Part shown: piece by piece, positions 40,723 through 62,485 of the stretch
How the letters are laid out: the number at the start of each line of letters is the position of its first letter
Position numbering within the stretch: position 1 is the stretch's first letter
NCBI GenBank assembly: GCA_026705605.1
Contig: JAPPAK010000008.1
Coordinates: forward strand, 1-64,000
Length of the DNA: 64,000 nt
Source: Chloroflexota bacterium
Lineage (GTDB): Bacteria; Chloroflexota; Dehalococcoidia; Tepidiformales; Tepidiformaceae
Direction: 5' to 3'
Program-made: the position numbers and the translations under genes
The notes under the pieces: model-generated
Database searches by the model: none
The model's input: only the letters and a program-made list of their open reading frames with translations
What the model was told of the DNA's origin: nothing

Positions 40723-42078
40723 ATGCGGCGAATTGCCATCGTCGGCGGAGGAGTCTCGGGGCTTGGCGCTGCCTGGGCGCTGAACCATCACCCCGATCGC
40801 TTCGACTTCCGCCTGTACGAGGCTCAGGAGCAGGTCGGCGGGAACGCCATCACGGCCGATATGCCCCAGGACGGCGGCGGCTCCATCCCCTTCGATATCT
40901 CCGTCACCGCCTGCATCCCCTCCATCTACCACCACATCGTCCTGTTGCTGGAGCGCTTCGGCATCGATCTCGTCGATACCAGGTTCAGCTACAGCGTGAA
41001 GTACCAGGGCCGCCTCTATGCGCACGACTTCGACTCCGACATCCGGCAACAGCTGCAACCCGAGATTGCGAAATTCCAGCGCATCTTGCGGCGCCTGCAC
41101 CGCATCGGCTGGCTGACCCGGAAGCAGTCGAAGTTCCTGAACGCCCTCAATCCGTTCAATTACATAAGCATGGGGACGGTGCTCAACCTGGGAGGCTTCT
41201 CCGGGGAGTTCCGCTACAAGATCCTGAAGCCGATGTTCGTCAATTTCCTGATGGCGACGAACGTCTTCGACATGCCCGCGGCGCTCTTCTCGCGCTACCT
41301 CGAGTTCTTCGACATCGAGACCTCCACGCCCATGCAGACGTGGGACAAGGGCACGCGGCGCATCTACGAAGAGCTATCGGCCGGCTTCCGCGACAAGATC
41401 TTCCTCGGCCGGCCCGTCCACAAGGTCTATCGGGACAAGACCGGCGTCGTGGTCGAGGATGCGGAGGGCGTGCGGGAAGCGTTCGACGACGTGATCTTCG
41501 CCTGCAACGCCAACCAGACGCTGATGCTCCTCGACAAGCCCACCTTCCTCGAGCGCTCCATCCTCTCCTCGATCCGCTACGAGAGTGAGCTCCACAACCA
41601 CACGGTCGTCCACTCCGATGCCTCCGTCCTCCCCGACAACGAGGTCAAGCCCCTGACGACGCGGAGCAACCACATCGAGCAGTACGGTGCGAGGCCGGAC
41701 AACTACGAGATCACCTACATCATGCACAACCAGCAGCCGTGGGCTCAGGAGTCCGACAAGCCCTGCCTCGTGACCTACAACCCGATCAGCCCCATCGACG
41801 AGAGCAAGGTCGTGAAGAAGTGGTGGTTCCAGCACATCGTCCACGACGTGCGTCACGTTGCGGTGACGGCGAATATCTTCCGCTTCATCCAGGGCAAGAG
41901 GCGCACGTGGCACTGCGGCGCCCACACGCTGGTCAACGCCCAGGAGACCTGCTTCGTGACGGGCCTCGCCGCCGCCCGGCAGCTCGGGGCTGACTACCCC
42001 TTCGAGGACGACGCCGCCAGGCGTTCATTCAACTACTACGGGGGCATCCTCTACGGCTGGCGATTCCGGAAGGCGTAG
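40723..42078 (+). CDS. FAD-dependent oxidoreductase, COG2907-like
   Basis: A 451-aa flavoprotein of the amine oxidase/phytoene desaturase superfamily. GGGVSG at residues 8-13 is the dinucleotide-binding motif, followed by the Glu of 'LYEAQEQVGGNA'. 'YGGILYGWRF' at the end fits the short C-terminal FAD loop. The overall layout recalls the 'predicted NAD/FAD-binding protein' group (COG2907), often found beside lipid-modifying genes such as cyclopropane fatty-acid synthase. The reaction is unknown. Its last 54 bases overlap the end of the Rieske gene on the other strand. It lies 9 bases after the M16 gene. Confidence 0.82.
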   Translation: MRRIAIVGGGVSGLGAAWALNHHPDRFDFRLYEAQEQVGGNAITADMPQDGGGSIPFDISVTACIPSIYHHIVLLLERFGIDLVDTRFSYSVKYQGRLYAHDFDSDIRQQLQPEIAKFQRILRRLHRIGWLTRKQSKFLNALNPFNYISMGTVLNLGGFSGEFRYKILKPMFVNFLMATNVFDMPAALFSRYLEFFDIETSTPMQTWDKGTRRIYEELSAGFRDKIFLGRPVHKVYRDKTGVVVEDAEGVREAFDDVIFACNANQTLMLLDKPTFLERSILSSIRYESELHNHTVVHSDASVLPDNEVKPLTTRSNHIEQYGARPDNYEITYIMHNQQPWAQESDKPCLVTYNPISPIDESKVVKKWWFQHIVHDVRHVAVTANIFRFIQGKRRTWHCGAHTLVNAQETCFVTGLAAARQLGADYPFEDDAARRSFNYYGGILYGWRFRKA

Positions 42079-43161
42079 CCCTGCATCCGGTTGCCGGATT
42101 GCACGATCCGCCTCGGGGAGTCGATCCGCGGCGTCCTCCAGTTCCGGATAGAACTGAGCGCAGTAGTCCCGGAACATGGTGATCTCCCCATCGGCCCGGT
42201 TGAGGCGGGGGCGCGCCCGGTACTGCTTCCGGCGCCAGATCACCACGTCCTGAAGCACGTCCATCTTCTGCATGGGGCTCAGGAACCTGTTGACGACGTG
42301 AGCCCGCAGCCGGTGTGGGAGAAACCCCGCGCCCGCGATGAAGCGCCTGGTCTTCGGCTCCACTCGCACCTGCGAGACCAGCGACATGTCGATAAGCCTG
42401 CCGTCCACGGGTGTCGCCAGGATCCACAGGCGCATGTCCATTGGGATTGAATGCTCGCGGACCTGCACAAGGGAGTAGCCGAACCCGAAGATGCGGGTGT
42501 GGGCGGAGAGGTCGAGCGTGAGCCTGGCGATCCCGGCGATCTTCCGCACACTCCGGAAGTCCCAGCGGCTCACGAAGAGTGGCCCGTCTACTTCGATCGG
42601 GTGGGTGCGGTCCACGTTGTCGTAGCCATGCACGTAGCGAAGGTGGGCGATGTCGACCGAGTTCTCCGTCGTCTCCTGGGGGTGACCGGGGAAGCGCAGG
42701 GTCTGGATGCGGAGGTCGCTCCACCCTTCCTGGTCGGTTGCGTCGTCGGGAAGGCCCCACTGGGACGGCCGGCCCTCGAGCCCCCACCAGGCGAAGATCA
42801 GCCCCGCGACCTCGTGCGTCTCGAAGACTCGCAGCCTCGCCGATCGCGGCGGGGCGGCGAAGGGCGTGGCGACGCACTGCCCGCTGGTATCGAACTCGAA
42901 GCCATGGAACGGACAGACCACCCGTCCTTCGCAGATGCGCGCCCCTGCGGTCGGTCCGAGCGCCGAGCCGAGGTGCGGACAGACCGACTCCGCGACGCAG
43001 ATCCGACCGTCCTCGTCGCACCAGGCGACGATCTCCTCCCCCATCCAGGTCTTCTCGATGAGTCCGGCTCTCTCGATGGCCTTGCGGCTCGCGACGAAAT
43101 ACCAGCCCTCGGGAAAGGGCGAAAGCGTGTCGTTGGTGGCCTCGGGACGGGGCGTTGGCAT
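42025..43161 (-). CDS. Rieske [2Fe-2S] oxygenase, sterol 7-desaturase/KshA-like
   Basis: A 378-aa Rieske non-heme iron oxygenase. The cluster ligands are C61-P-H63 and C83-P-F-H86. The mononuclear iron motif is ENSVDIAHLRYVHG with D170, H173 and H178. The order 'GH.QE..EN..DIAHL..VH' is close to that of the Neverland/DAF-36 cholesterol 7-desaturases and bacterial KshA-type steroid oxygenases rather than to benzoate-type dioxygenases; this comparison is from memory and not computed. No transmembrane segment is obvious. It needs an electron donor, not found nearby. It is divergent from the GPP34-P450 fusion gene. Confidence 0.85.
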   Translation of the reverse strand: MPTPRPEATNDTLSPFPEGWYFVASRKAIERAGLIEKTWMGEEIVAWCDEDGRICVAESVCPHLGSALGPTAGARICEGRVVCPFHGFEFDTSGQCVATPFAAPPRSARLRVFETHEVAGLIFAWWGLEGRPSQWGLPDDATDQEGWSDLRIQTLRFPGHPQETTENSVDIAHLRYVHGYDNVDRTHPIEVDGPLFVSRWDFRSVRKIAGIARLTLDLSAHTRIFGFGYSLVQVREHSIPMDMRLWILATPVDGRLIDMSLVSQVRVEPKTRRFIAGAGFLPHRLRAHVVNRFLSPMQKMDVLQDVVIWRRKQYRARPRLNRADGEITMFRDYCAQFYPELEDAADRLPEADRAIRQPDAGLRLPESPAVEDAPVVVE

Positions 43162-43384
43162 CGTCCGACACTCCTCACCTGGAATCTCGACTAACGGATC
43201 CCCTTTGCCGAAGAGTCACCATTTACGGTAGGCGCACACGAATCTTACGTCAGGTGAGCACACTCACACCTGAACCGTTCCTTTCTTTCGGGATTGGTTG
43301 CACCCGCTAGATTCGCTTGCGATACACTTGCTTTTGAGGTCGGGCGCCTGCCGCGAGATAGCCCGCGCCTCGAGGATTGGACTC
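43162..43384. promoter_or_regulatory. Divergent intergenic region with inverted repeat, Rieske/GPP34-P450
   Basis: This 223-base gap carries no gene. It is less GC-rich than its flanks. An inverted repeat TCAGGTG (43250-43256) and CACCTGA (43267-43273), with a 10-base spacer, could be an operator shared by the two divergent genes. A GAGG before ATG 43385 serves as ribosome-binding site. No clear -35/-10 pair was picked. Confidence 0.35.
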
Positions 43385-45409
43385 ATGACTCTCGCTACAG
43401 AAAGCGTCGCAACGCGAGCGCTCACCCTGCCCGATGAACTCCTCCTGATGCTCCTCAATGAGGACAGCGGCTACTTTCGCCAGGTACCCGGGTGGGACCT
43501 GAACTGTGCAGTGGTCGGGGCGGTGCTCGCGGAGCTGTCCCTCATCTCCCGCATCGATACCGATATGGACTCGCTCATCCTCCTGGACAAGACTCCCACG
43601 GGAGACGCCGCCCTCGACGACATCCTGCGGGAGATTGCCGACGAACCGGCCCAGCAAAACGCCCAGTACTGGATCGAGCGCCTCGCGCCCCATGCCGAGT
43701 CGATCATCGATGTGACCCTGGAGCGTCTGGTGGCGATGCAGATTCTTCAGTACCACGACGGCGAGTTCTGGACGCTGTCGCGCATCGCCTGGCAGCGCGC
43801 AGAGACAGGCGATTCGCAGAACGGCTCGACCGAGTTCGTGACGACGCGTATCGGCAACGTGCTCTACAACAACGAGATTCCCGACCCGCGGGATGTCATC
43901 ATCATCGCGCTCGCAAACACCTGCGACGTCCTCCGCTTCGTCTTCCCCATCGAGGAAGAGCACGAAGAGCGTGTCGAACTCATCTGCAGGATGGACCTGA
44001 TCGGCCGGGCGATCGCCGATGCGGTCGCCAACAACCTGGCCGGCCCGCTGCTCCGGCGCGCCACGCTGACCAAGGAGATCCCGACGGTTCCGCTGCACAA
44101 GGTGTTGCTCAACCGACATCTCCGGAGAGGCAACCTGCCGGGGCTCTTCGCCGATCTCGCGGAAGAGTACGGCCCGGTGTTCAAGCTCAACCCGCCGTTC
44201 CTCGACACCATGACCTTCCTCGCCGGTCCCGAAACCAATCGCTGGGCGCACCGGCACGGGCGCACGTACCTGAGGGCCAAGGACTACCTCCAGGAGTTCG
44301 AGAAGGTCTACGGTGCGTCCGGCATCCTCCCCTCCCTCGACGGGGCCGACCACTTCCGCTTCCGCAAGTCCCTGCAGCCGGCCTACTCCCGTGCGCGGCT
44401 GGAAGGGCAGCTGGATACCGTCTTCACCAACGCCCGCGCGCACATGGCGACCTGGAAGGTCGGGGACGCCTTCCCCGCATGCCCCATGTCCCGGAAGCTG
44501 ATCAATTCGCAGATTTCGCCGCTCATGCTCAGCGTGCAGTCGCAGGACCTCCTCGACGACCTGAGCGTGTACAAGGAACGGGCGCTCGCCACGCGAGTCG
44601 TGAAGGTTCTGCCCAAGTTCATGCTGAACACTCCGGGCATGAAGCGGAAGGCGAGGGGTATCGAGACGTTGCTGGACCGCGTCCAGGGCATCCACACCCC
44701 GGCCCAGCGGGCCGGATGTCCCCGCGACCTCGCCGACGACCTCCTCAGCCTGCACGCGAGCGATCCGCAGTTCCTCCCTGAGTCGAATCTGCGCTTCGCG
44801 CTTTCGGCCCCGCTGATTGCGAGCGTGTACCTCGGCGACGGGCTCAGCTTCGCGCTCTACGCCATGGCCACCCAGCCCGATCTCTATGAGCGGATCCGCG
44901 CCGAAGCGGATGCCCTCTTCGCTGACGGCGATCCCGCCCCCGAGGACTTCACCCTGGAAGCCATCGACACCACCCACCGGTTCATCATGGAGTCCATGCG
45001 CATCTACCCGATCGTCCCTGTGTCGATCCGGACCGTGATGAACGCCTGCGTGGTGGAGGGCTACGAGCTCCCCGAGGGATCGGAGATCCATATCGCCCAG
45101 ACGGCCTCGCACTACATGAGCGACGTGTTCCCCGATCCCGAGAGGTTCGACATCGACCGCTACCTGCCTCCTCGAGACGAGCATCGCGGTCCCGGCTACG
45201 CCCCGTACGGGCTGGGTACGCACACCTGCCTCGGCTCGCGCTGGATGGAGTTGCAGCTCAGCGCCAACCTGCTGATGCTGGCGCACTACTTCACCATCAA
45301 GGTGGCGCCGGAAAACAAGCCGCTCCGGATAAACCCGTTCCCTTCGCTGTCCATCAGCAAGAAGATCAAGTTTGTGATCGCCGAGAAAAGGCGCGAGATC
45401 CCAACCTGA
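43385..45409 (+). CDS. GPP34 (GOLPH3-like)-cytochrome P450 fusion protein
   Basis: A 674-aa two-domain protein. Residues about 12-220 are a GPP34 domain: it begins LTLPDELLLMLLNEDSGYF, continues 'IDTDMDSLILLD', and holds NEIPDPRD (163-170) and 'RMDLIGRAIADAV'. Residues about 230-674 are a full P450, with E536-R539 (ExxR) in MESMRIYP and heme loop YGLGTHTCLG, ligand C615. The I-helix reads VYLGDGLSFALYA, without the usual acid/Thr pair. GPP34 proteins bind phosphoinositide or membrane surfaces in eukaryotes, so the domain may hold the P450 on a membrane. ATG 43385 has a GAGG upstream. SMT follows 77 bases later. Confidence 0.88.
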   Translation: MTLATESVATRALTLPDELLLMLLNEDSGYFRQVPGWDLNCAVVGAVLAELSLISRIDTDMDSLILLDKTPTGDAALDDILREIADEPAQQNAQYWIERLAPHAESIIDVTLERLVAMQILQYHDGEFWTLSRIAWQRAETGDSQNGSTEFVTTRIGNVLYNNEIPDPRDVIIIALANTCDVLRFVFPIEEEHEERVELICRMDLIGRAIADAVANNLAGPLLRRATLTKEIPTVPLHKVLLNRHLRRGNLPGLFADLAEEYGPVFKLNPPFLDTMTFLAGPETNRWAHRHGRTYLRAKDYLQEFEKVYGASGILPSLDGADHFRFRKSLQPAYSRARLEGQLDTVFTNARAHMATWKVGDAFPACPMSRKLINSQISPLMLSVQSQDLLDDLSVYKERALATRVVKVLPKFMLNTPGMKRKARGIETLLDRVQGIHTPAQRAGCPRDLADDLLSLHASDPQFLPESNLRFALSAPLIASVYLGDGLSFALYAMATQPDLYERIRAEADALFADGDPAPEDFTLEAIDTTHRFIMESMRIYPIVPVSIRTVMNACVVEGYELPEGSEIHIAQTASHYMSDVFPDPERFDIDRYLPPRDEHRGPGYAPYGLGTHTCLGSRWMELQLSANLLMLAHYFTIKVAPENKPLRINPFPSLSISKKIKFVIAEKRREIPT

Positions 45410-45486: not shown

Positions 45487-46521
45487 GTGCAGCTACGTAC
45501 GCTCCTGAAAGAGTTGAACCACTCGTACAGCGGCTCCGACGTCACAGGTCGCGTACGAGACTTCAACAAGTGGACCGACGTCGCGGCGATGGCCGCCGAT
45601 GGGTCGAGCGACTACTCCCATAGCGAAACGGCGAAGGAGTACTACGACCTGTGCACGGCGTTCATGGTCTGGGGCTGGAGCGAGTCCCTGCACTTCGCGC
45701 CGCTCAAGCCCTCGGAGAGCCTGGAGCAGTCACAGGAACGGCATCAGCGGTTGATGATCTCCAAGCTGGAGTTGGAAGAGGGCATGACCGTGGTCGACGT
45801 CGGATGTGGAATCGGCGGCCCCATGCGCCGGGTTGTCCGTGAGGCCGGCGTCCGCGTCTCAGGAGTCAACATCAACGAAATCCAGCTGGCGATGGCGAAG
45901 CAGCTAACTGCCGAGGCGGGACTCGACCACATGGTCGATTACGAGACGTGCAGCTTCATGGATATGAGCGGCATCCCGGACGGCGCCTTCGACCGCGGGT
46001 ACGCCATCGAGTCAACCTGCCACGCGCCGGACAAGCAGGGCGCGTTCGCCGAGATCTTCCGCGTGCTGAAACCGGGAGCCCTCCTCTGGGGCCAGGAGAT
46101 GTGCCTGACGGAGAAGTTCGACCCGAACGACAGCCGCCACAGGGCCATCAAGCAAGAGCTCATGCTCGGCATCGCGCTGAACGACATCGCGACCTTTGCG
46201 GAAGTGAATCACGCGCTTGAAGCGGTCGGGTTCGAGGTCATCGAGGGGATGGACCGGGATGTCCAGGAAGGACCATCCACACCCTGGTATCAGCCCATGG
46301 AGACTCGCCAGGGAACGCCGGGGAGCGCGGTGCGCAGGCTCCCATGGGGCCGCAAAGCGATATTCGGAGGAGTCAAGCTCGCCGAAACGGTGCGGCTGTT
46401 CCCGAAGGGCTCCGCGGAAGTCATCCGGCTCCTGGATCGGACCGCGGACGCCTATGTAGCAGGCGGCAAGACCGGGATCTTCACGCCGCTGTACTGTTTT
46501 CTGGCTCGAAAGCCGCTCTAG
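45487..46521 (+). CDS. Sterol 24-C-methyltransferase family protein (ERG6/SMT-like)
   Basis: A 344-aa SAM-dependent methyltransferase that aligns by eye with yeast Erg6 along its length. The aromatic 'WGWSESLHF' (from residue 62) stands for YGWGSSFHF, DVGCGIGGP (from 104) is the SAM motif, and YAIESTCHAP (172-181) matches YAIEATCHAP. 'HALEAVGFEVIE' and 'TPWYQP' match the following block, and the C-terminal 'LFPKGSAEVI...YVAGGKTGIFTPLYCFLARKPL' is the Sterol_MT_C domain. These are hallmarks of enzymes that alkylate C24 of the sterol side chain. The start is GTG 45487. It lies directly after the GPP34-P450 gene. Substrate and product number are unknown. Confidence 0.88.
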   Translation: MQLRTLLKELNHSYSGSDVTGRVRDFNKWTDVAAMAADGSSDYSHSETAKEYYDLCTAFMVWGWSESLHFAPLKPSESLEQSQERHQRLMISKLELEEGMTVVDVGCGIGGPMRRVVREAGVRVSGVNINEIQLAMAKQLTAEAGLDHMVDYETCSFMDMSGIPDGAFDRGYAIESTCHAPDKQGAFAEIFRVLKPGALLWGQEMCLTEKFDPNDSRHRAIKQELMLGIALNDIATFAEVNHALEAVGFEVIEGMDRDVQEGPSTPWYQPMETRQGTPGSAVRRLPWGRKAIFGGVKLAETVRLFPKGSAEVIRLLDRTADAYVAGGKTGIFTPLYCFLARKPL

Positions 46522-46531
46522 GCCCTGGCGC

Positions 46532-49009
46532 CTACGACGACTCCTGCTCGTACTGCTCGTGGACGCCCTCGATCGCCACGTCGAGCTCCTCCCACACCCG
46601 CTCCACCATCGAGCGCAGCTTCATGTTCTGGTACGCGCCCCAGACGGTCATCGCGGGCGGCACCAGCAGGATCGACACGATGAGCGCGTACGCGATCGTG
46701 ATCGCGGCCGTGATGCCGAACTCCTGAGACGCGAGCGTGGGCGAGAGCACCAGCGCTCCGAGTCCGAGGGCGGTCGTCAGGGCCGACCCGAGCAGCGCCG
46801 ATCCCGTGGTCGCCAGCGTTCGGATTGCCGCTTGCTCGGGATTGCGCAGGTGGGCGAACTCCTCCCGGTAGCGATGAATCACGTGGATCGTGTAGTCCAC
46901 GCCGATTCCGATCGAGAGCGCCGTGATGATTGCGGTGACCAGCGTGTAGGGAATGCCGATCAGGGCCATCGTGCCCAGCACCCAGATGAGCACCAGTATG
47001 ACCGGCGCCACCGCGATAAAGGCCAGTACCGGCTGCCGCAACGTGACCCAGAAGAAGATGGCGAGGATGCCGAACGCCATCGCGATGGTCGTGCTGATCG
47101 CCTCGGTCTGGCGACCGGTAATCTCGTCCGTGACTGCGATAGAGACGATGCTCCCCGACGTTGCCGTGACCGTTCCGTCCTCGCCGAACCAGAGGGCCTC
47201 CAGGTCCTCCTGGAGCGCCCTCGTCGTATCTGGATCACCCGAGAAGGCGGGGAACTGGACCAGCAGTGAATCGATCCCGTCCGGATCGTCGACCAGCGCA
47301 TGAGCGACAGCGGGTTCCACCTCCTTGAGCCGGTCGAGGAACTCCTGCAGCAGCTCTGGGTCGAGCTCCACCCCCGCGGAAGCTTCGTGGAAAAGCGCGG
47401 CCAGCTCGGGGTCGTAGTTGTCGCCCGGCTGCCCGCTGTCCGTCGTCCAGTCGCGCACGATCAGCTCATACGACATCTGGATGGGCCCTGCCGCCGCCCG
47501 CGGGCGGCGATCCTCATCGTCGAAGGCCTCCCTGAGGTCGTGGAGGTTCAGGTACGTCCGCGTCTCCGTCGCTTCCGCTTTCACCAGGACAGTGACCATC
47601 TCCGTCGAACCGCCGACGGCTGTCTCGAGGGTCTCGATGTCCTCCAGGACGGTCCCGCCCTGGGGCAGGATGTCGCGGATGTCAAACCCGGACTCGAGCC
47701 TCGTAGCGGAGAACCCGAGCCCGATCGTGATCGCCAGAATGACGATGAAGTAGGGCGCCGGCCGGCGCGCGACTGATGTCCCCAGCACCTCCGCCAGGCG
47801 GCCGATGCCGGGCAGCGCGTTCGCAACCGGTCGGGGTGGCGTCAGCTTGCCCCGCGCCTCGCGCCGCCGGTCGATGATGGTCCGCGCTGCCGGGAGCAGC
47901 GTCAGCATCACGATCAGGCTCATCCCCACGCCCAATCCCGCCACGATGCCGAAATCCCTCACCACGGAGATCGGCGAGAACAGGTTCGCCAGGAGGCTCA
48001 CGATCGTCGTGACGGCGGCCAGCACGAGCGGAATCGTCACGTTGCGCAATCCCGTCCTGACTGCGTCGACGACCGAGACGCCGGCGGTTCGCTGCTCGCG
48101 GTAGTGCGAGACGGCCTGGATGGCGTAGTCCACCGTGAGGCTGATGACGATGATTGGGACCATGGCCGTGAGCGAGCTCGGCGGGCCGATGAGATCGAGT
48201 GCGTCCGGCCCGAGCCAGCCCTCCACGCCGATGACCCAGATCAGTGAAATCAGCAGACCGGCCAGCGTGAGCAGCAGGTCGGAGAGCGTTCGCAGGAACA
48301 CCAGGATCAGGGCGAGGATCAGGAGCAGGGCCAGCCCGATCAGCGGCAACAGCCCCTCTTCCGTGGCTTTCTTGTACTCATCCTCGATTACCACGGGCGA
48401 GACGCTGCTTACGCGCAGCGGGCCTTCGTCGTCGGTCGCCAGCTCGTTGATCGAGCGTTCAGCCTCCTGAATTCGCTCGTCGCCGGTGTCGATCAGCCTG
48501 ATGGTGGCGATCGCGACGGCTGTGCCGTCCTCGTCGGTCCCCGTCATCGCGGCAAGCCCGGCGGCGATTTCGGGCACGCCGCGGGCAGAGTCAATCTCTG
48601 CCTGCGTGACCGATTCGAAGCTGTCGGTCTGGAGCACCGTTCCGATGAGGAACGTGGGTGCGATCGCCGCGTCGCCGGGCGCTAGCAGGCCGCCTATGTC
48701 AGGGTGGCCGAGGATCCAGTCCATCAGGGCGTCCATCTGCGACAGGCCGTCGGGGGTGAACGCTTCCCCCCGGAAGACGAGGGTCACGACCCGGACGTCG
48801 CCCGACTCCGAGAAGAGCTCGTCTATCTCATTGATCGCATCGGCGACGTCGTTCCCCGGGGGAAGGAATGCCAGGGCCGCGCCTTCGATCACCTCCGCGC
48901 GCCGCCCCGCGCCCATGGCCAGGACGACGGTAATGACGAGGAGGATGGCGATCGTGATGTACGGCCGGACGGTAACCAGCCAGCTCAGCCTGTCGAGAAC
49001 ACGGCTCAT
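46532..49009 (-). CDS. RND/MMPL-family transporter (lipid/sterol-type)
   Basis: An 825-aa membrane protein with the RND duplication: one TM helix near residue 15, a large outer loop (about 35-225), five TM helices, then a second TM near 405, another loop and a final TM bundle containing 'GIGVDYTIHVIHRYREEF'. Length and layout match MMPL/HpnN-like exporters, which move lipids such as hopanoids; bacterial sterol transport also uses an RND protein (BstA of Methylococcus). It ends 10 bases from the SMT stop, tail to tail, and is divergent from a sulfatase. Sterol transport is inferred from this position only. Confidence 0.88.
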   Translation of the reverse strand: MSRVLDRLSWLVTVRPYITIAILLVITVVLAMGAGRRAEVIEGAALAFLPPGNDVADAINEIDELFSESGDVRVVTLVFRGEAFTPDGLSQMDALMDWILGHPDIGGLLAPGDAAIAPTFLIGTVLQTDSFESVTQAEIDSARGVPEIAAGLAAMTGTDEDGTAVAIATIRLIDTGDERIQEAERSINELATDDEGPLRVSSVSPVVIEDEYKKATEEGLLPLIGLALLLILALILVFLRTLSDLLLTLAGLLISLIWVIGVEGWLGPDALDLIGPPSSLTAMVPIIVISLTVDYAIQAVSHYREQRTAGVSVVDAVRTGLRNVTIPLVLAAVTTIVSLLANLFSPISVVRDFGIVAGLGVGMSLIVMLTLLPAARTIIDRRREARGKLTPPRPVANALPGIGRLAEVLGTSVARRPAPYFIVILAITIGLGFSATRLESGFDIRDILPQGGTVLEDIETLETAVGGSTEMVTVLVKAEATETRTYLNLHDLREAFDDEDRRPRAAAGPIQMSYELIVRDWTTDSGQPGDNYDPELAALFHEASAGVELDPELLQEFLDRLKEVEPAVAHALVDDPDGIDSLLVQFPAFSGDPDTTRALQEDLEALWFGEDGTVTATSGSIVSIAVTDEITGRQTEAISTTIAMAFGILAIFFWVTLRQPVLAFIAVAPVILVLIWVLGTMALIGIPYTLVTAIITALSIGIGVDYTIHVIHRYREEFAHLRNPEQAAIRTLATTGSALLGSALTTALGLGALVLSPTLASQEFGITAAITIAYALIVSILLVPPAMTVWGAYQNMKLRSMVERVWEELDVAIEGVHEQYEQESS

Positions 49010-49198: not shown

Positions 49199-51448
49199 AT
49201 GAGCAGCGAACCGTATTTCCAGGGTCATATCGGGCGCTACACGAGCGAGTCGACGCCGTGGTGGCCCGAGCCTCCGAAGCCGGCGCCGGGAAGCCCCAAC
49301 GTCGTCTTCATCATGCTCGATGACGTTGGTTTCGGGCACCTCGGGTGCTACGGCTCCTCGATCGATACCCCTGCCATGGATCGCCTCGCGGCCAACGGGA
49401 TTCGCTACCGGAACTTCCACACCACCACCATTTGCTCCCCCTCCCGCGCGTGCCTGCTGACTGGACGGAACCACCACTCCGTCGGCATGCGCACGATCTC
49501 CAACTACGACACCGGCTTCCCCAGTGCCCGCGGCGCGATCTCTCCGAGCGCCGCCACGATCGCGCAGATGCTGCAGCAGACGGGCTACAACACCGCCGCC
49601 TTCGGCAAGTGGCACCTTGCCCCAATGGCCGACGGCTCCGCCGCCGGACCCTTCCACGGATGGCCCCTCGGCAAGGGGTTCGAGCGCTACTACGGCTTCC
49701 TTGATGCGCTCACCGACCAGTTCGCCCCCGAACTGATCCTCGACAACCGCCACATCCCCTCGCCCTCCGACCCGGACTACCACCTGAGCGAGGCTATCGT
49801 CGACGAGGCCATCGAGTTCGTCCGCGACCAGACCTCGCTCTCGACCACTCCCTTCTTCCTCTACGTCGCCTTCGGAGCGTGCCACTCCCCGCACCAGGCC
49901 CCGCAGGAGTACCTCGACAAGTACCGCGGCAAGTTCGACCAGGGCTGGGATGCCACGCGCGAGGCCTGGTTCCAGCGCCAGCTGGAGCTCGGCATCGTCC
50001 CCGAAGGCACGCAGCTCGCCCCTCGCAACAACGGCGTCCCCGCCTGGGATGATCTTTCCGAAGACGAACAGCGCGTCCGCGCCCGCCTGCAGGAAGCCTT
50101 CGCGGCCATGCTGGACCACATGGACCACCAGATCGGGCGGCTTGCCGACTACCTCGAGGAGGTCGACGAGCTCGATAACACACTCTTCGTCGTCGTCTCC
50201 GACAACGGCGCGAGCCAGGAGGGTGGTCCCCTCGGTGTCGTCAACGAAGGCCGCTTCTATAACCAGGTTCCCGCAAGCGAGGAGTACAACCAGGCCAACA
50301 TCGATGAGATCGGTGGGCCCAGGTCCCACACCAACTACCCCTGGGGCTGGGCGCAGGTCGGAAACACCCCGCTCAAACGCTACAAGCAGAACACCCACGG
50401 GGGCGGCATCCGCGACCCGCTCATCATCCACTGGCCCGATCGCATCAAGGACGCGGGAGCGATCCGCCCACAGTTCCACCACATCTCCGACATCGTCCCG
50501 ACCGTGCTGGAAGTGCTCGGCGTCGAGGCGCCGGAGATGTACCAGGGAGTGCCGCAGCTCCCGATCCACGGGACGAGCATGCTCTACACGTTCGACTCGG
50601 GCGATGAGCCCACGCGCAAGCGAAACCAGCACTTCGAGATGTTCGGTCACAGGGGCATCTGGCACGACGGCTGGAAGGCAGTCACCTTCCACGCGCCGGG
50701 CGGTTCCTTCGAGGACGATCAATGGGAGCTCTACCACCTCGATGAGGACTTCTCCGAGTGCAACGACCTCGCCGAGTCCGAGCCGGAGAAGCTCAAGGAG
50801 ATGATCGAGCACTGGTGGATCGAGGCGGCCAAATACGATGTGTTGCCGCTCGAAGACGGGCTCCGCGGGGCACGGGGTACGCCCCCCAAGAAAGGCTCCC
50901 CCCAGGACCGCACGAGCTTCGTCTACCGCCAGGGCATGGCCCACACGCCGACGAATGCCGCCGCCGATGTCCGCAACCGCGACTACACCATCACCGTCGA
51001 GCTGTCCCGGGAGACCGAGGCAGACGAGGGCGTGCTCATCGCCCACGGTGGGATCACCGGTGGGTACTCCCTGTTCATCAAGGACAGCCGCCTGGTGCAC
51101 GAATACAGCTACGTCGGCGAGCGCTATCGCATCGTCTCCGACACGGACGTGCCAATCGGGGGGTCAGTCGTGACGTTCGAGTTCACGAAGACCAACGAGC
51201 TGGCGGGAACGGCCATTCTCACGATGAACGGCCGTCAGGTGGGAAGCGGAGATCTCCCTGCCACGCTCGGTGGGATGTTCGCGATCGAGGGTCTCGATGT
51301 CGGCCAGGACCTCTACACGCCCGTCAGCGAGGACTACGAGGTGCCGTTCGCCTTCTCCGGCGCTATTGCCGGAGTGCGGATCGAGCTCGGCTCCAACCAG
51401 GTGCTCGATCGCGAGGCCGAACTGCGCGGTCGCATCATCGCCGAGTAG
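49199..51448 (+). CDS. Arylsulfatase (Cys-type sulfatase), 749 aa
   Basis: A type I sulfatase. The active-site motif is CSPSR with C79 in 'TTICSPSRACLLTGRN'; this Cys must be converted to formylglycine. Metal-binding 'MLDDVGFGHLGCYG' is near residue 40 and 'DNGAS' near 335. An extra C-terminal lectin-like sandwich (about 590-749) follows the catalytic domain. There is no signal peptide, so it works in the cytoplasm unless exported another way. A TATACT -10-like box is at 49125-49130 and GAGG precedes ATG 49199. FGE at 52420 would activate it. The substrate is unknown. Confidence 0.92.
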   Translation: MSSEPYFQGHIGRYTSESTPWWPEPPKPAPGSPNVVFIMLDDVGFGHLGCYGSSIDTPAMDRLAANGIRYRNFHTTTICSPSRACLLTGRNHHSVGMRTISNYDTGFPSARGAISPSAATIAQMLQQTGYNTAAFGKWHLAPMADGSAAGPFHGWPLGKGFERYYGFLDALTDQFAPELILDNRHIPSPSDPDYHLSEAIVDEAIEFVRDQTSLSTTPFFLYVAFGACHSPHQAPQEYLDKYRGKFDQGWDATREAWFQRQLELGIVPEGTQLAPRNNGVPAWDDLSEDEQRVRARLQEAFAAMLDHMDHQIGRLADYLEEVDELDNTLFVVVSDNGASQEGGPLGVVNEGRFYNQVPASEEYNQANIDEIGGPRSHTNYPWGWAQVGNTPLKRYKQNTHGGGIRDPLIIHWPDRIKDAGAIRPQFHHISDIVPTVLEVLGVEAPEMYQGVPQLPIHGTSMLYTFDSGDEPTRKRNQHFEMFGHRGIWHDGWKAVTFHAPGGSFEDDQWELYHLDEDFSECNDLAESEPEKLKEMIEHWWIEAAKYDVLPLEDGLRGARGTPPKKGSPQDRTSFVYRQGMAHTPTNAAADVRNRDYTITVELSRETEADEGVLIAHGGITGGYSLFIKDSRLVHEYSYVGERYRIVSDTDVPIGGSVVTFEFTKTNELAGTAILTMNGRQVGSGDLPATLGGMFAIEGLDVGQDLYTPVSEDYEVPFAFSGAIAGVRIELGSNQVLDREAELRGRIIAE

Positions 51449-57182: not shown

Positions 57183-58706
57183 ATGCCTGCTGACTCACGG
57201 CCCAACATCGTCGTCATCATGGCCGACCAGCACCGCGCCGACGCGCTCGGCTGCTACGGCAACGACATCATCCACACGCCCAACATCGACCGCCTCGCGG
57301 CCGAGGGCGCCCGTTTCGGCCGGGCCTTCTGTCAGGGGCCGCTCTGCATGCCCGCCCGCTGGTCGCTGCTCACGGGCCGCTACGTCCGCGACCACGGCGT
57401 GTTCGAGAACGACTGGGACATGACCCAGGACATCCCCAACCTCGCCCAGCACCTCCAGCAGGCCGGCTACTACACGAGCTGCATCGGCAAGATGCACCTC
57501 TTCGCCGACGAGACGCTCGTCTGCGGAAGGCCGGACATGGTGTCCGACCCGAACGTGACCGCGCGCTATCGAGCGGTCGGCTTCGATGAACCGCACCCGG
57601 CGCCCGAGAAGAACGGCGTGATGGGCCTCGACTGCGAGTACGTCGACTACCTCAAGGAGCGGGATCTCTTCGAGATGTACGGGGAGTGGTTCCACCTGCG
57701 CGCCTACCCCAAGAAGACGCGCGACCACCTCGGGCTGCCCATGTGGTTCCCCGAGTCAACGCCCCTGCCCAACGACGCCTACCTCGATACCTGGACCGGG
57801 CAGCAGGTCGTCGACTGGATCGACGGATACGACGGCGACCAGCCCTTCTTCCAGTGGGTCGGGTTTCCCGGGCCGCACGAGCCGCACGACGCCCCGAGCG
57901 ACTACGTCGACCTCTACCGCCGGGTCGAGATCCCCGTCGGCGAGCGCATTCCGCCGCAGGTGCCCGAGTCGGGACCGCTCCACACCCTCATGCGCTGGCT
58001 CCAGACCACGGCCCAGTGGGAGGGGCTCACCGACGACATCGTCGAGCTCCTCACGCGCTACTACTACGCCAACATCACCGCCATCGACGACCAGGTCGGA
58101 GCCATCGTCGACGCGCTCGAGCGCAAGGGCATCCTCGACAACACCTGGATCATCTACACCGCCGACCACGGCGAGATGATGGGCGACCACTGGATGCTCT
58201 GGAAGATGCTGTTCTACGAGCAGTCGGCAACCGTGCCCCTGGTCATCCGCCCGCCCGCCGGCATGGAGCCCCGTACCGTCGATGGCATCGTCGAGCACGT
58301 CGACGTGACCGCCACGATCGAGGCCCTGACCGGCATCGCGCCCCTCCCGGGCAACGAGGGCAACTCCCTCATCGGCCACGTCGACGGCAGCGGCGCCGGC
58401 CCCACCCGCGACGTCGCCCACAGCGAGAACTACGGGTTTGGCATGTTCGCGACCGACCGCTACAAGCTCGTCGTCTTCGAGGACACGCAGGAGCCAGTCC
58501 AGCTCTTCGACTTCCAGGAGGATCCCGACGAGAACTGGAACGTCGTCGCGGATCCCTCCTATGCGGACGTGATCGAACAGATGATGCAGGACCACGTCCG
58601 CCCGTTCTTCGAGACACCGCCGCAGCGACCGGCGAGGGGCATCTGGGAGGTCCAGGCGGGGCGCTACGAAGGCAACCGCCACTTGGCCGTGCGGAACCCG
58701 CGCTAG
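57183..58706 (+). CDS. Sulfatase (Cys-type, choline-sulfatase/alkyl-sulfatase-like), 507 aa
   Basis: A type I sulfatase with CMPAR (C55) as the site of formylglycine. 'NIVVIMADQHRADALGCYG' supplies the N-terminal metal ligands and 'YTADHGEMMGDHWMLWKMLFYEQS' the later ones. No signal peptide is visible, so it acts in the cytoplasm. It follows the two permeases after 48 bases and an AGGAGG ribosome-binding site, so import and desulfation are probably co-expressed. FGE is encoded a few kilobases upstream on the other strand. Substrate unknown. Confidence 0.92.
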   Translation: MPADSRPNIVVIMADQHRADALGCYGNDIIHTPNIDRLAAEGARFGRAFCQGPLCMPARWSLLTGRYVRDHGVFENDWDMTQDIPNLAQHLQQAGYYTSCIGKMHLFADETLVCGRPDMVSDPNVTARYRAVGFDEPHPAPEKNGVMGLDCEYVDYLKERDLFEMYGEWFHLRAYPKKTRDHLGLPMWFPESTPLPNDAYLDTWTGQQVVDWIDGYDGDQPFFQWVGFPGPHEPHDAPSDYVDLYRRVEIPVGERIPPQVPESGPLHTLMRWLQTTAQWEGLTDDIVELLTRYYYANITAIDDQVGAIVDALERKGILDNTWIIYTADHGEMMGDHWMLWKMLFYEQSATVPLVIRPPAGMEPRTVDGIVEHVDVTATIEALTGIAPLPGNEGNSLIGHVDGSGAGPTRDVAHSENYGFGMFATDRYKLVVFEDTQEPVQLFDFQEDPDENWNVVADPSYADVIEQMMQDHVRPFFETPPQRPARGIWEVQAGRYEGNRHLAVRNPR

Positions 58707-61051: not shown

Positions 61052-61708
61052 ATGCTGAGATTCGCCGAAGAGATCATCCTGCTTTTGCTCCGCGACGAGG
61101 ACGGCACCTTCGTCCACGTGCCCAACTGGTCGATGGACCGCGCCATCGCCGGCGCCGTGCTCATGGACCTGGCCATGGAGAACCGCATCGACACCGACCT
61201 CGAAAACCTGATCCTGGTCGACTCCACCCCGATCGGCGATACCCTCCTCGACCCCACCCTCGCCGAAATCGCTTCCGACGAAACCCGTGATCCCCGCTAC
61301 TGGGTCGAGCACGTGGCCCAGCGCGCCCCCGAGATTCGCGAAGAGGCGCTCAACCGCCTCGTCGATGGCGGCATCCTCGAGCGCCAGGACGACCGCTTCC
61401 TCTGGGTCTTCCGCTCCCGCCGCTACCCCATGGTTGACGGCAAGGCCGAGCGCGAAGTGAAGCTGCGCATCATGGGCATCCTCTTCAGCGAAGAGATCCC
61501 CGACCCGCGCGACGTCGTCATCATCTGCCTCGTCGATGCCTGCCGCATCTTCCGCGAGCTCCTCTCCAAGCGGGAGCTGGAGCAGGTCACGCCTCGCATC
61601 GAGCAGGTACGCAAGCTCGACCTGATCGGCCAGGCCATGGCCCAGGCCATCCGCGACATCGAGGTCTGGATCACGACCGCCCAGATCGAAGGGCGGATGC
61701 TCTACTAG
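61052..61708 (+). CDS. Stand-alone GPP34 (GOLPH3/Vps74-like) protein
   Basis: A 218-aa GPP34-family protein. 'FAEEIILLLLRDEDGTFVHVPNWSMDRAIAGAVLMDLAMENRIDTDLENLILVD' is the N-terminal helical block, and 'LFSEEIPDPRDVVIICLVDACRIF' with 'RKLDLIGQAMAQAI' is the core motif. It is a paralog of the GPP34 half of the P450 fusion at 43385: both share IPDPRD and DLIGxAxAxA. In eukaryotes GPP34 proteins read phosphatidylinositol 4-phosphate on Golgi membranes; the bacterial ligand is unknown. A TAGCAT -10-like box is at 61018-61023. A methyltransferase follows 15 bases later. Confidence 0.9.
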   Translation: MLRFAEEIILLLLRDEDGTFVHVPNWSMDRAIAGAVLMDLAMENRIDTDLENLILVDSTPIGDTLLDPTLAEIASDETRDPRYWVEHVAQRAPEIREEALNRLVDGGILERQDDRFLWVFRSRRYPMVDGKAEREVKLRIMGILFSEEIPDPRDVVIICLVDACRIFRELLSKRELEQVTPRIEQVRKLDLIGQAMAQAIRDIEVWITTAQIEGRMLY

Positions 61709-61723: not shown

Positions 61724-62485
61724 ATGGCCGTCTCCCCGGACGAACTGATCGACGGCTGGCTGCGAGAAGAGCAGCAGCCTTTCACCGGCTGGGACTTCTC
61801 CTACCTCGATGGCCGCATGGTCGTGGACCGGGAACCCTGGTCGTACCTCGACCGCGCAGCCGAACTGATGGCACGGTCCTCGGTCCTCGACCTGGATACC
61901 GGCGGCGGCGAGAAGCTCCTTGCGTTGCGGGAGCACTGGCCCGCGAGGGTAGTCGCCACCGAGGACTACGCGCCTAACTACGAACTGGCTTCCGGGCGAC
62001 TCTCACCCCTCGGCGCCACGGTTGTGAGGACGCCGGTCTCCGACACGGCTGCAATGCCCTTCGCCGACGGCGAGTTCGACCTTGTCCTGAACCGGCACGC
62101 CGCCTTCAACCCCAGCGAGGTGGCCCGCATCCTCGCAGGCGGCGGCTCCTTCCTCACTCAGCAGGTCCACGGGATGTGGGCCTGGGACCTGCTCGCCGCC
62201 TTCGACGCCACGCCCCGGTGGCCAGACGCTACGCCGGCCAAGTACGCGCCACTGCTGGAAGCGGCCGGCCTCACCATTCAGAACGTCGAGGAGTGGGAAG
62301 GCAGGCTCGCGTTCACCGATGTGGGCGCAATCGTCTACTACCTCAAGGCCACGCCCTGGGAGGTCCCCGGATTCACCGTGAAGACCCACCTCCGATACCT
62401 GCTCGCCCTGCAGCGGCGGGTGGATGCAGGCGAGGACCTGGCCTTCCACGCGGCCCTGTACCTCATCGAAGCCAGGAAACCGTAG
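61724..62485 (+). CDS. Class I SAM-dependent methyltransferase
   Basis: A 253-aa methyltransferase. 'SSVLDLDTGGGEKLL' is the SAM-binding motif I, 'VVATEDYAPNYELA' the acidic strand 2, and 'MPFADGEFDLVLNRHAAFNPSEVARILAGGGSFLTQQVHG' the later motifs. It is of the small general type (Methyltransf_11), unlike the SMT. It starts 15 bases after the GPP34 gene. The substrate is unknown. Confidence 0.85.
   Translation: MAVSPDELIDGWLREEQQPFTGWDFSYLDGRMVVDREPWSYLDRAAELMARSSVLDLDTGGGEKLLALREHWPARVVATEDYAPNYELASGRLSPLGATVVRTPVSDTAAMPFADGEFDLVLNRHAAFNPSEVARILAGGGSFLTQQVHGMWAWDLLAAFDATPRWPDATPAKYAPLLEAAGLTIQNVEEWEGRLAFTDVGAIVYYLKATPWEVPGFTVKTHLRYLLALQRRVDAGEDLAFHAALYLIEARKP

Follow-up and report, generated by a model that had tools for sequence, protein, structure and literature searches.

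A GPP34-cytochrome P450 fusion with an altered I-helix, a candidate component of a proposed sterol-modifying gene cluster in sponge and coral symbionts

A single open frame in the Chloroflexota DNA analysed here (the window, 64,000 nucleotides of contig JAPPAK010000008.1) encodes a GPP34 domain followed by a cytochrome P450, a fusion that constitutes a new P450 architecture and whose full-length relatives occur in about 40 MAGs from seven phyla. In our reading, to which we give a probability of roughly one half, the fusion supplies the P450 of a sterol-modifying cluster common to sponge and coral symbionts, with the GPP34 half docking a non-canonical P450. We infer all three parts of this reading (the sterol substrate, the docking function and the altered chemistry), and their combination has about even odds of being right.

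The fusion protein and its predicted fold

The preliminary description of this DNA had proposed that one frame runs from a GPP34 domain with an IPDPRD core into a complete P450 with ExxR and heme Cys, which Pfam, motif and Foldseek analyses confirm. The frame starts with an ATG at 43385 and its end at 45409 includes the stop codon, an alternative TTG start being present upstream at 43298. PF05719 matches residues 15-215 with 106.7 bits (cut-off 29.1, E 2e-30), in agreement with the span of 12-220 initially proposed for it, and the IPDPRD core occupies residues 165-170; PF00067 matches residues 247-659 with 124.1 bits (cut-off 22.8, E 9e-36), and the P450 hallmarks are present as ESMR (the ExxR motif, 536-539) and as the heme ligand Cys615 within GLGTHTCLG. 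The protein thus belongs to the P450 superfamily by its HMM score, its ExxR and its heme Cys motif, and to the GPP34 family by passing the curated HMM cut-off and by matching the GOLPH3 fold. AlphaFold models the full protein with a mean pLDDT of 80.1 and a pTM of 0.64, the linker at residues 219-227 being of low confidence, and the GPP34 half alone with values of 81.5 and 0.81. In Foldseek searches, all eight PDB matches of the GPP34 half at E<=0.001 are GOLPH3 or Vps74 (including 3kn1, 9qpq and 2zih), and the matches of the P450 half are P450s, among them CYP51 of Methylococcus capsulatus, BM3 and CYP184A1.

Could the fusion simply be an assembly or frameshift artefact uniting two genes? Full-length copies of this open fusion occur in dozens of assemblies that are independent of one another and stem from several hosts and several phyla, which refutes this explanation and leaves it a practically nil probability. 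In line with the initial impression that this was not a described architecture, a full-text search of the open-access literature gave no GPP34-P450 fusion.

Table 1. Positions in the window of the fusion gene, its parts, its conserved neighbours and other genes mentioned in the text
Feature	Positions	Strand	Basis or remark
GPP34-cytochrome P450 fusion protein, 674 aa	43385..45409	+	Open frame, Pfam, motifs
GPP34 (PF05719) half, residues 15-215	43427..44029	+	GOLPH3/Vps74 fold; PI4P-pocket residues replaced
Inter-domain stretch, about residues 220-240	44042..44104	+	Includes low-confidence linker 219-227
Cytochrome P450 half, residues 247-659	44123..45361	+	I-helix ~478-484, ESMR 536-539, Cys615
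Rieske oxygenase with KshA_C domain	42025..43161	-	Pfam, motifs; 35/44 fusion loci
Sterol-methyltransferase-like (SMT-like) enzyme, CMAS/Methyltransf_11 + Sterol_MT_C	45487..46521	+	28/44 fusion loci
FAD amine-oxidase-family protein	40723..42078	+	Best solved relative LkcE; 25/44 fusion loci
MMPL/RND transporter with sterol-sensing-domain-like stretch	46532..49009	-	23/44 fusion loci
Sulfatase, near the cluster	49199..51448	+	Pfam
Second sulfatase-like ORF, near the cluster	57183..58706	+	
Open reading frame of 2994 aa	21659..30643	+	
Stand-alone GPP34 gene	61052..61708	+	
Small methyltransferase gene	61724..62485	+	Follows the stand-alone GPP34 gene

Distribution and selection

One scan of genome contigs yielded 43 loci, mostly with full-length fusions at 60-98% identity, which belong (per NCBI) to Chloroflexota, Gemmatimonadota, Pseudomonadota, Actinomycetota, Binatota, Latescibacterota and Myxococcota. 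Going by isolate codes, at least 33 of the 43 come from sponges or the coral Porites lutea, ten of the codes being unplaced. The sponge hosts so indicated are Rhopaloeides, Coscinoderma, Ircinia and Aplysina (listed as hosts in PMC8163846). Within a sample of 400 Chloroflexota genomes, 27 carry the fusion, and a search of 395 other Actinomycetota and 397 other Pseudomonadota genomes gave no further fusion of the window's kind (type I).

In the fusion tree, the phyla are partly intermixed, which suggests that the fusion has been transferred between phyla, in a sense that does not prove each single transfer. Between related pairs, dN/dS lies at 0.04-0.29 in the GPP34 half and the P450 half alike, so that both halves are under purifying selection and have been retained for function. 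The two halves can diverge unequally: when the window fusion is compared with L022 and L024, dN is 0.14 for GPP34 and 0.07 for the P450 in one pair, and the respective values are 0.08 and 0.22 in the other, a hint that copies may have recombined. One MAG carries a tandem pair of fusion genes (L047:5769-9953).

An altered I-helix and its possible chemistry

The I-helix of the window protein reads IASVYLGDGLSF at about residues 478-484 and has no acid/Thr pair, as the preliminary description had noticed. This is not a peculiarity of one sequence, since 62 of 63 distinct homologues carry AS[VMA]Y[LVM]GD (AS-x-Y-x-GD), the sole exception (L011) reading GQYLGD. AGxDT is retained both in stand-alone P450 relatives (33-40% identity) and in GPP34-P450 fusions of a second type (about 33% identity), and the loss of the pair is therefore a derived trait, near-invariant across the type I family; in the alignment, the type I I-helix is one residue shorter and its Thr is replaced by Tyr. 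By lack of the acid-alcohol pair, the protein falls outside the canonical P450 monooxygenases.

The second type (L129:8784-10787, L130:1272-3311 and L131:8002-10032) has the same domain order and length as type I, and differs from it in its canonical I-helix. The genes that follow its members are homologous to one another (the one in L129 is Acyl_transf_3 according to Pfam), and the copy in L131 is interrupted by a stop codon.

In P450s, such a change of the I-helix suggests that oxygen activation may draw its protons from a different source, or that the reaction may not be plain hydroxylation. Unusual oxygen chemistry, as initially suggested, is plausible for the fusion P450. In the reworked helix, which has lost the acid/Thr pair with a one-residue deletion and gained an invariant Tyr and a Gly-Asp, the protons for oxygen activation might come from elsewhere, namely the I-helix Tyr, water or a hydroxyl of the substrate; the enzyme may, instead, catalyse a reaction other than plain hydroxylation.

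A different explanation is that the P450 half is non-catalytic, a structural or regulatory partner that, together with GPP34, scaffolds the FAD and Rieske enzymes of the cluster. Its model is the P450-derived glycosyltransferase activators, which have lost the heme Cys. The family-wide absence of the oxygen-activating pair, the existence of a near-obligate partner enzyme (the FAD oxidase) and the disappearance of the heme Cys itself from one copy are in its favour. However, nearly all homologues keep both the heme Cys and ExxR, although a heme ligand would be superfluous in a scaffold, and purifying selection on the P450 half is strong. Furthermore, this retention of the Cys separates the fusion from the glycosyltransferase activators, to whose NCBIfam model it matches weakly, far below the cut-off, and we do not count it among them. 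All in all, a scaffold role appears unlikely. In the exceptional copy, L054:8001-10076, the heme ligand is changed to Arg (GLGTHTRLG), its close relatives retaining the Cys.

The GPP34 half as a putative docking module

The PI4P pocket of GOLPH3 consists of W81, R90, R171 and R174 (PMC4414131). None of the four is retained in any of the 24 fused domains examined, where mostly P, V, E/D and I/V are found instead, whereas the last pocket Arg persists in 15 of 16 stand-alone bacterial GPP34 copies. The identification of the fused domain as a GOLPH3-type PI4P effector was consequently rejected, and with it falls the phosphoinositide analogy with eukaryotic GPP34 that had been drawn at first; the eukaryotic lipid specificity does not carry over to the fusion. 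Recruitment to a membrane or to a partner is therefore suggested by the fold and not by lipid specificity. The fused domain shares with GOLPH3/Vps74 the fold and a PF05719 score over the cut-off, these proteins being its only significant structural matches in the PDB, but it is bacterial, is joined to an enzyme, has replaced the whole pocket and is shorter, residues found between 'RID' and 'DSLIL' in GOLPH3/Vps74 being absent from it.

GPP34 proteins that stand alone in bacteria, among them that of the window and SCO4440 of Streptomyces (described in PMC12402492), share the Pfam domain with the fused copies. Between the fused and the stand-alone copies compared here, identity is 30-42%, and both the FRSRRYP motif and the pocket Arg are absent from the fused ones. 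Fused domains of both types fall on one side of a branch that separates them from the stand-alone copies (SH-aLRT 95, long branches meeting there), and the type I domains form a clade with an SH-aLRT of 100. Stand-alone copies are also present in most fusion-bearing genomes, and the pair of such a gene with a small methyltransferase gene, as in the window, recurs in seven genomes of the genus.

The fold and the constancy of the fusion lead us to the hypothesis that the N-terminal half serves as a built-in docking module, which would hold the P450 at the membrane or against partner enzymes, at a place where sterols partition, through contacts other than the eukaryotic PI4P pocket. Could it be, instead, a mere solubility or stability extension? 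The loss of the PI4P pocket would agree with that, as would the P450-only relatives (33-40% identity), which do without GPP34. Nevertheless, conservation is about equal in the GPP34 half and the P450 half, the second fusion type has retained it too, and no type I P450 devoid of GPP34 was found, apart from fragments at contig ends and one truncated copy, all of which makes an extension without docking quite improbable.

The conserved neighbourhood and the sterol hypothesis

The genes around the fusion were counted over 44 loci, many of them cut by contig ends (Table 1). Their order and strand vary, and the neighbourhood is a new cluster type within known kinds. The Rieske oxygenase of the window scores 76.4 bits against KshA_C (cut-off 23.3) and has intact CxH..CxxH and facial-triad motifs, which identify it as a KshA-type enzyme. 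The SMT-like gene begins 77 bp downstream of the fusion, and its product, with Sterol_MT_C at 64 bits (cut-off 21.7) and the SAM motif DVGCGIGG, is a putative sterol C-24 methyltransferase by domain and motif. The FAD oxidase, about 80% identical across phyla, occurs in 25 of the 27 fusion genomes and in 0 of the 373 others of the Chloroflexota sample (Fisher p=1e-37, a figure that ignores kinship and is overstated), always 1.5-5.2 kb from the fusion in the 23 cases on the same contig. This pattern, nearly all-or-none, makes it clearly a near-obligate genomic partner of the fusion.

The preliminary description had imagined that the fusion could do for a lipid-acting P450 what phosphoinositide-binding GPP34 does for enzymes in eukaryotes; the phosphoinositide analogy does not stand, and a lipid role, taken as a sterol one, fits the SMT-like, KshA-type Rieske and MMPL neighbours. 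In the mechanism that we propose, the P450 half would oxidise a sterol-type substrate, on which the FAD oxidase and the Rieske oxygenase would also work, and the side chain of this substrate would be alkylated by the SMT-like enzyme in many, not all, genomes.

Where would such a substrate come from? An OSC-type cyclase was matched in only 6 of the 22 fusion genomes searched and no oxidosqualene cyclase was found in the other 16, where MAG incompleteness could hide some cyclases; these 16 include G044 and G052, two fusion-bearing single-contig chromosomes. If the substrate is a sterol, then, most carriers must get it from the host, and the fusion as a required part of a de novo sterol pathway was rejected. 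SMT orthologs (65-78% identity) are nonetheless present in 12 of the 16 genomes without OSC, and many of these fusion genomes encode an ERG4/ERG24-family reductase. We propose that the substrate is probably an imported host sterol, which the host would supply in most carriers, and that the fusion probably helps the symbionts to edit sterols that many of them are unable to make.

There is, on the other hand, the possibility that the substrate of the cluster is a lipid other than a sterol, or a terpenoid (a polyketide, a hopanoid, a carotenoid or another specialised metabolite), with the SMT-like enzyme methylating that compound. Within the PDB, the nearest relative of the FAD oxidase is LkcE, which belongs to lankacidin biosynthesis and is not a sterol enzyme, and the complete genomes G044 and G052 have the fusion, the FAD oxidase and the Rieske gene and no SMT ortholog. 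The ortholog is missing in 6 of the 22 fusion genomes; the SMT is hence not obligate, and the link to sterols is indirect there. Against this possibility, the methyltransferase bears a sterol-specific C-terminal domain over the cut-off, the Rieske gene is of the KshA type, and neither polyketide nor other biosynthetic genes are conserved beside the fusion over the 44 loci. A hopanoid substrate is weakened by the 8 of 22 carriers without a cyclase match of any kind, or with none over the threshold. We regard a non-sterol substrate as rather doubtful, and the sterol reading as the preferable one.

Comparison with known sterol systems

Sponge-symbiont SMTs alkylate sterols in vitro, some of them to the 24-isopropyl side chain (PMC10070321). 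Common to that system and the present one is an SMT-like enzyme with Sterol_MT_C, encoded in a cluster of sponge symbionts, but that study mentions neither a P450 nor a Rieske oxygenase nor GPP34. Clusters of steroid genes (CSG), in turn, are spread with transfer among Ircinia symbionts, again with no mention of GPP34 (PMC9531527), and the likeness lies in the transfer of sterol genes across many sponge-symbiont phyla, CSG being often flanked by an SMT. Their core is, however, ERG24, CYP51 and LSS, none of which is found in the fusion neighbourhood, and the latter is thus not a CSG. A CSG-like de novo sterol cluster resembling those of PMC9531527 is found elsewhere in the genome of the window (G000, contig C2), and comprises an SDR, a Rieske oxygenase with VanA_C, ERG24, a CYP51-like P450, a squalene-epoxidase/OSC fusion and a second SMT. 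In it, squalene epoxidase and oxidosqualene cyclase share one frame of 1115 aa (L066:6229-9576).

The solved P450s that come nearest in sequence and in fold include CYP51 proteins, one of them the CYP51-ferredoxin fusion of M. capsulatus. This is a bacterial sterol P450 carried as a fusion, although its partner is ferredoxin and not GPP34. The identity is about 20% in structure alignments and CYP51 retains an AGxHTS I-helix. With that motif absent from the fusion and a separate CYP51 present in the genome of the window, the fusion was rejected as a CYP51 ortholog (sterol 14-demethylase).

In another genome of the genus (G032, contig C74), a diverged fusion copy stands back to back with an SQMO-OSC gene (L146:11102-15087). 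The fusion lacks its first 87 residues and the SQMO-OSC its first 355, so that this locus is a rearrangement junction or a misassembly, and the adjacency of the two genes (L011/L146), both truncated at the junction, was set aside as sterol evidence.

Implications

Bringing these elements together, we tentatively picture a cluster passed among at least seven symbiont phyla, by which bacteria that do not make sterols may rework those of the host, using a Tyr/Gly-Asp P450 with GOLPH3-fold membrane docking; in this full form, the idea is still somewhat doubtful. The fusion P450 is a natural test case for oxygen chemistry in the absence of the acid-alcohol pair. As for its other half, GOLPH3-like proteins were termed previously undescribed in prokaryotes in 2025 (PMC12402492), and almost no function has been assigned to bacterial GPP34 proteins. 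Covalent fusion to an enzyme, with conserved enzymatic neighbours, offers a rare way into the role of the bacterial fold. It is debated where the unusual sterols of sponges, which serve as biomarkers of early animals, come from, and symbiont SMTs have already been implicated (PMC10070321). A separate symbiont cluster that acts on host sterols would be of direct relevance to this debate and, if our reading is true, could explain some of the peculiarities of the sponge sterol inventory.
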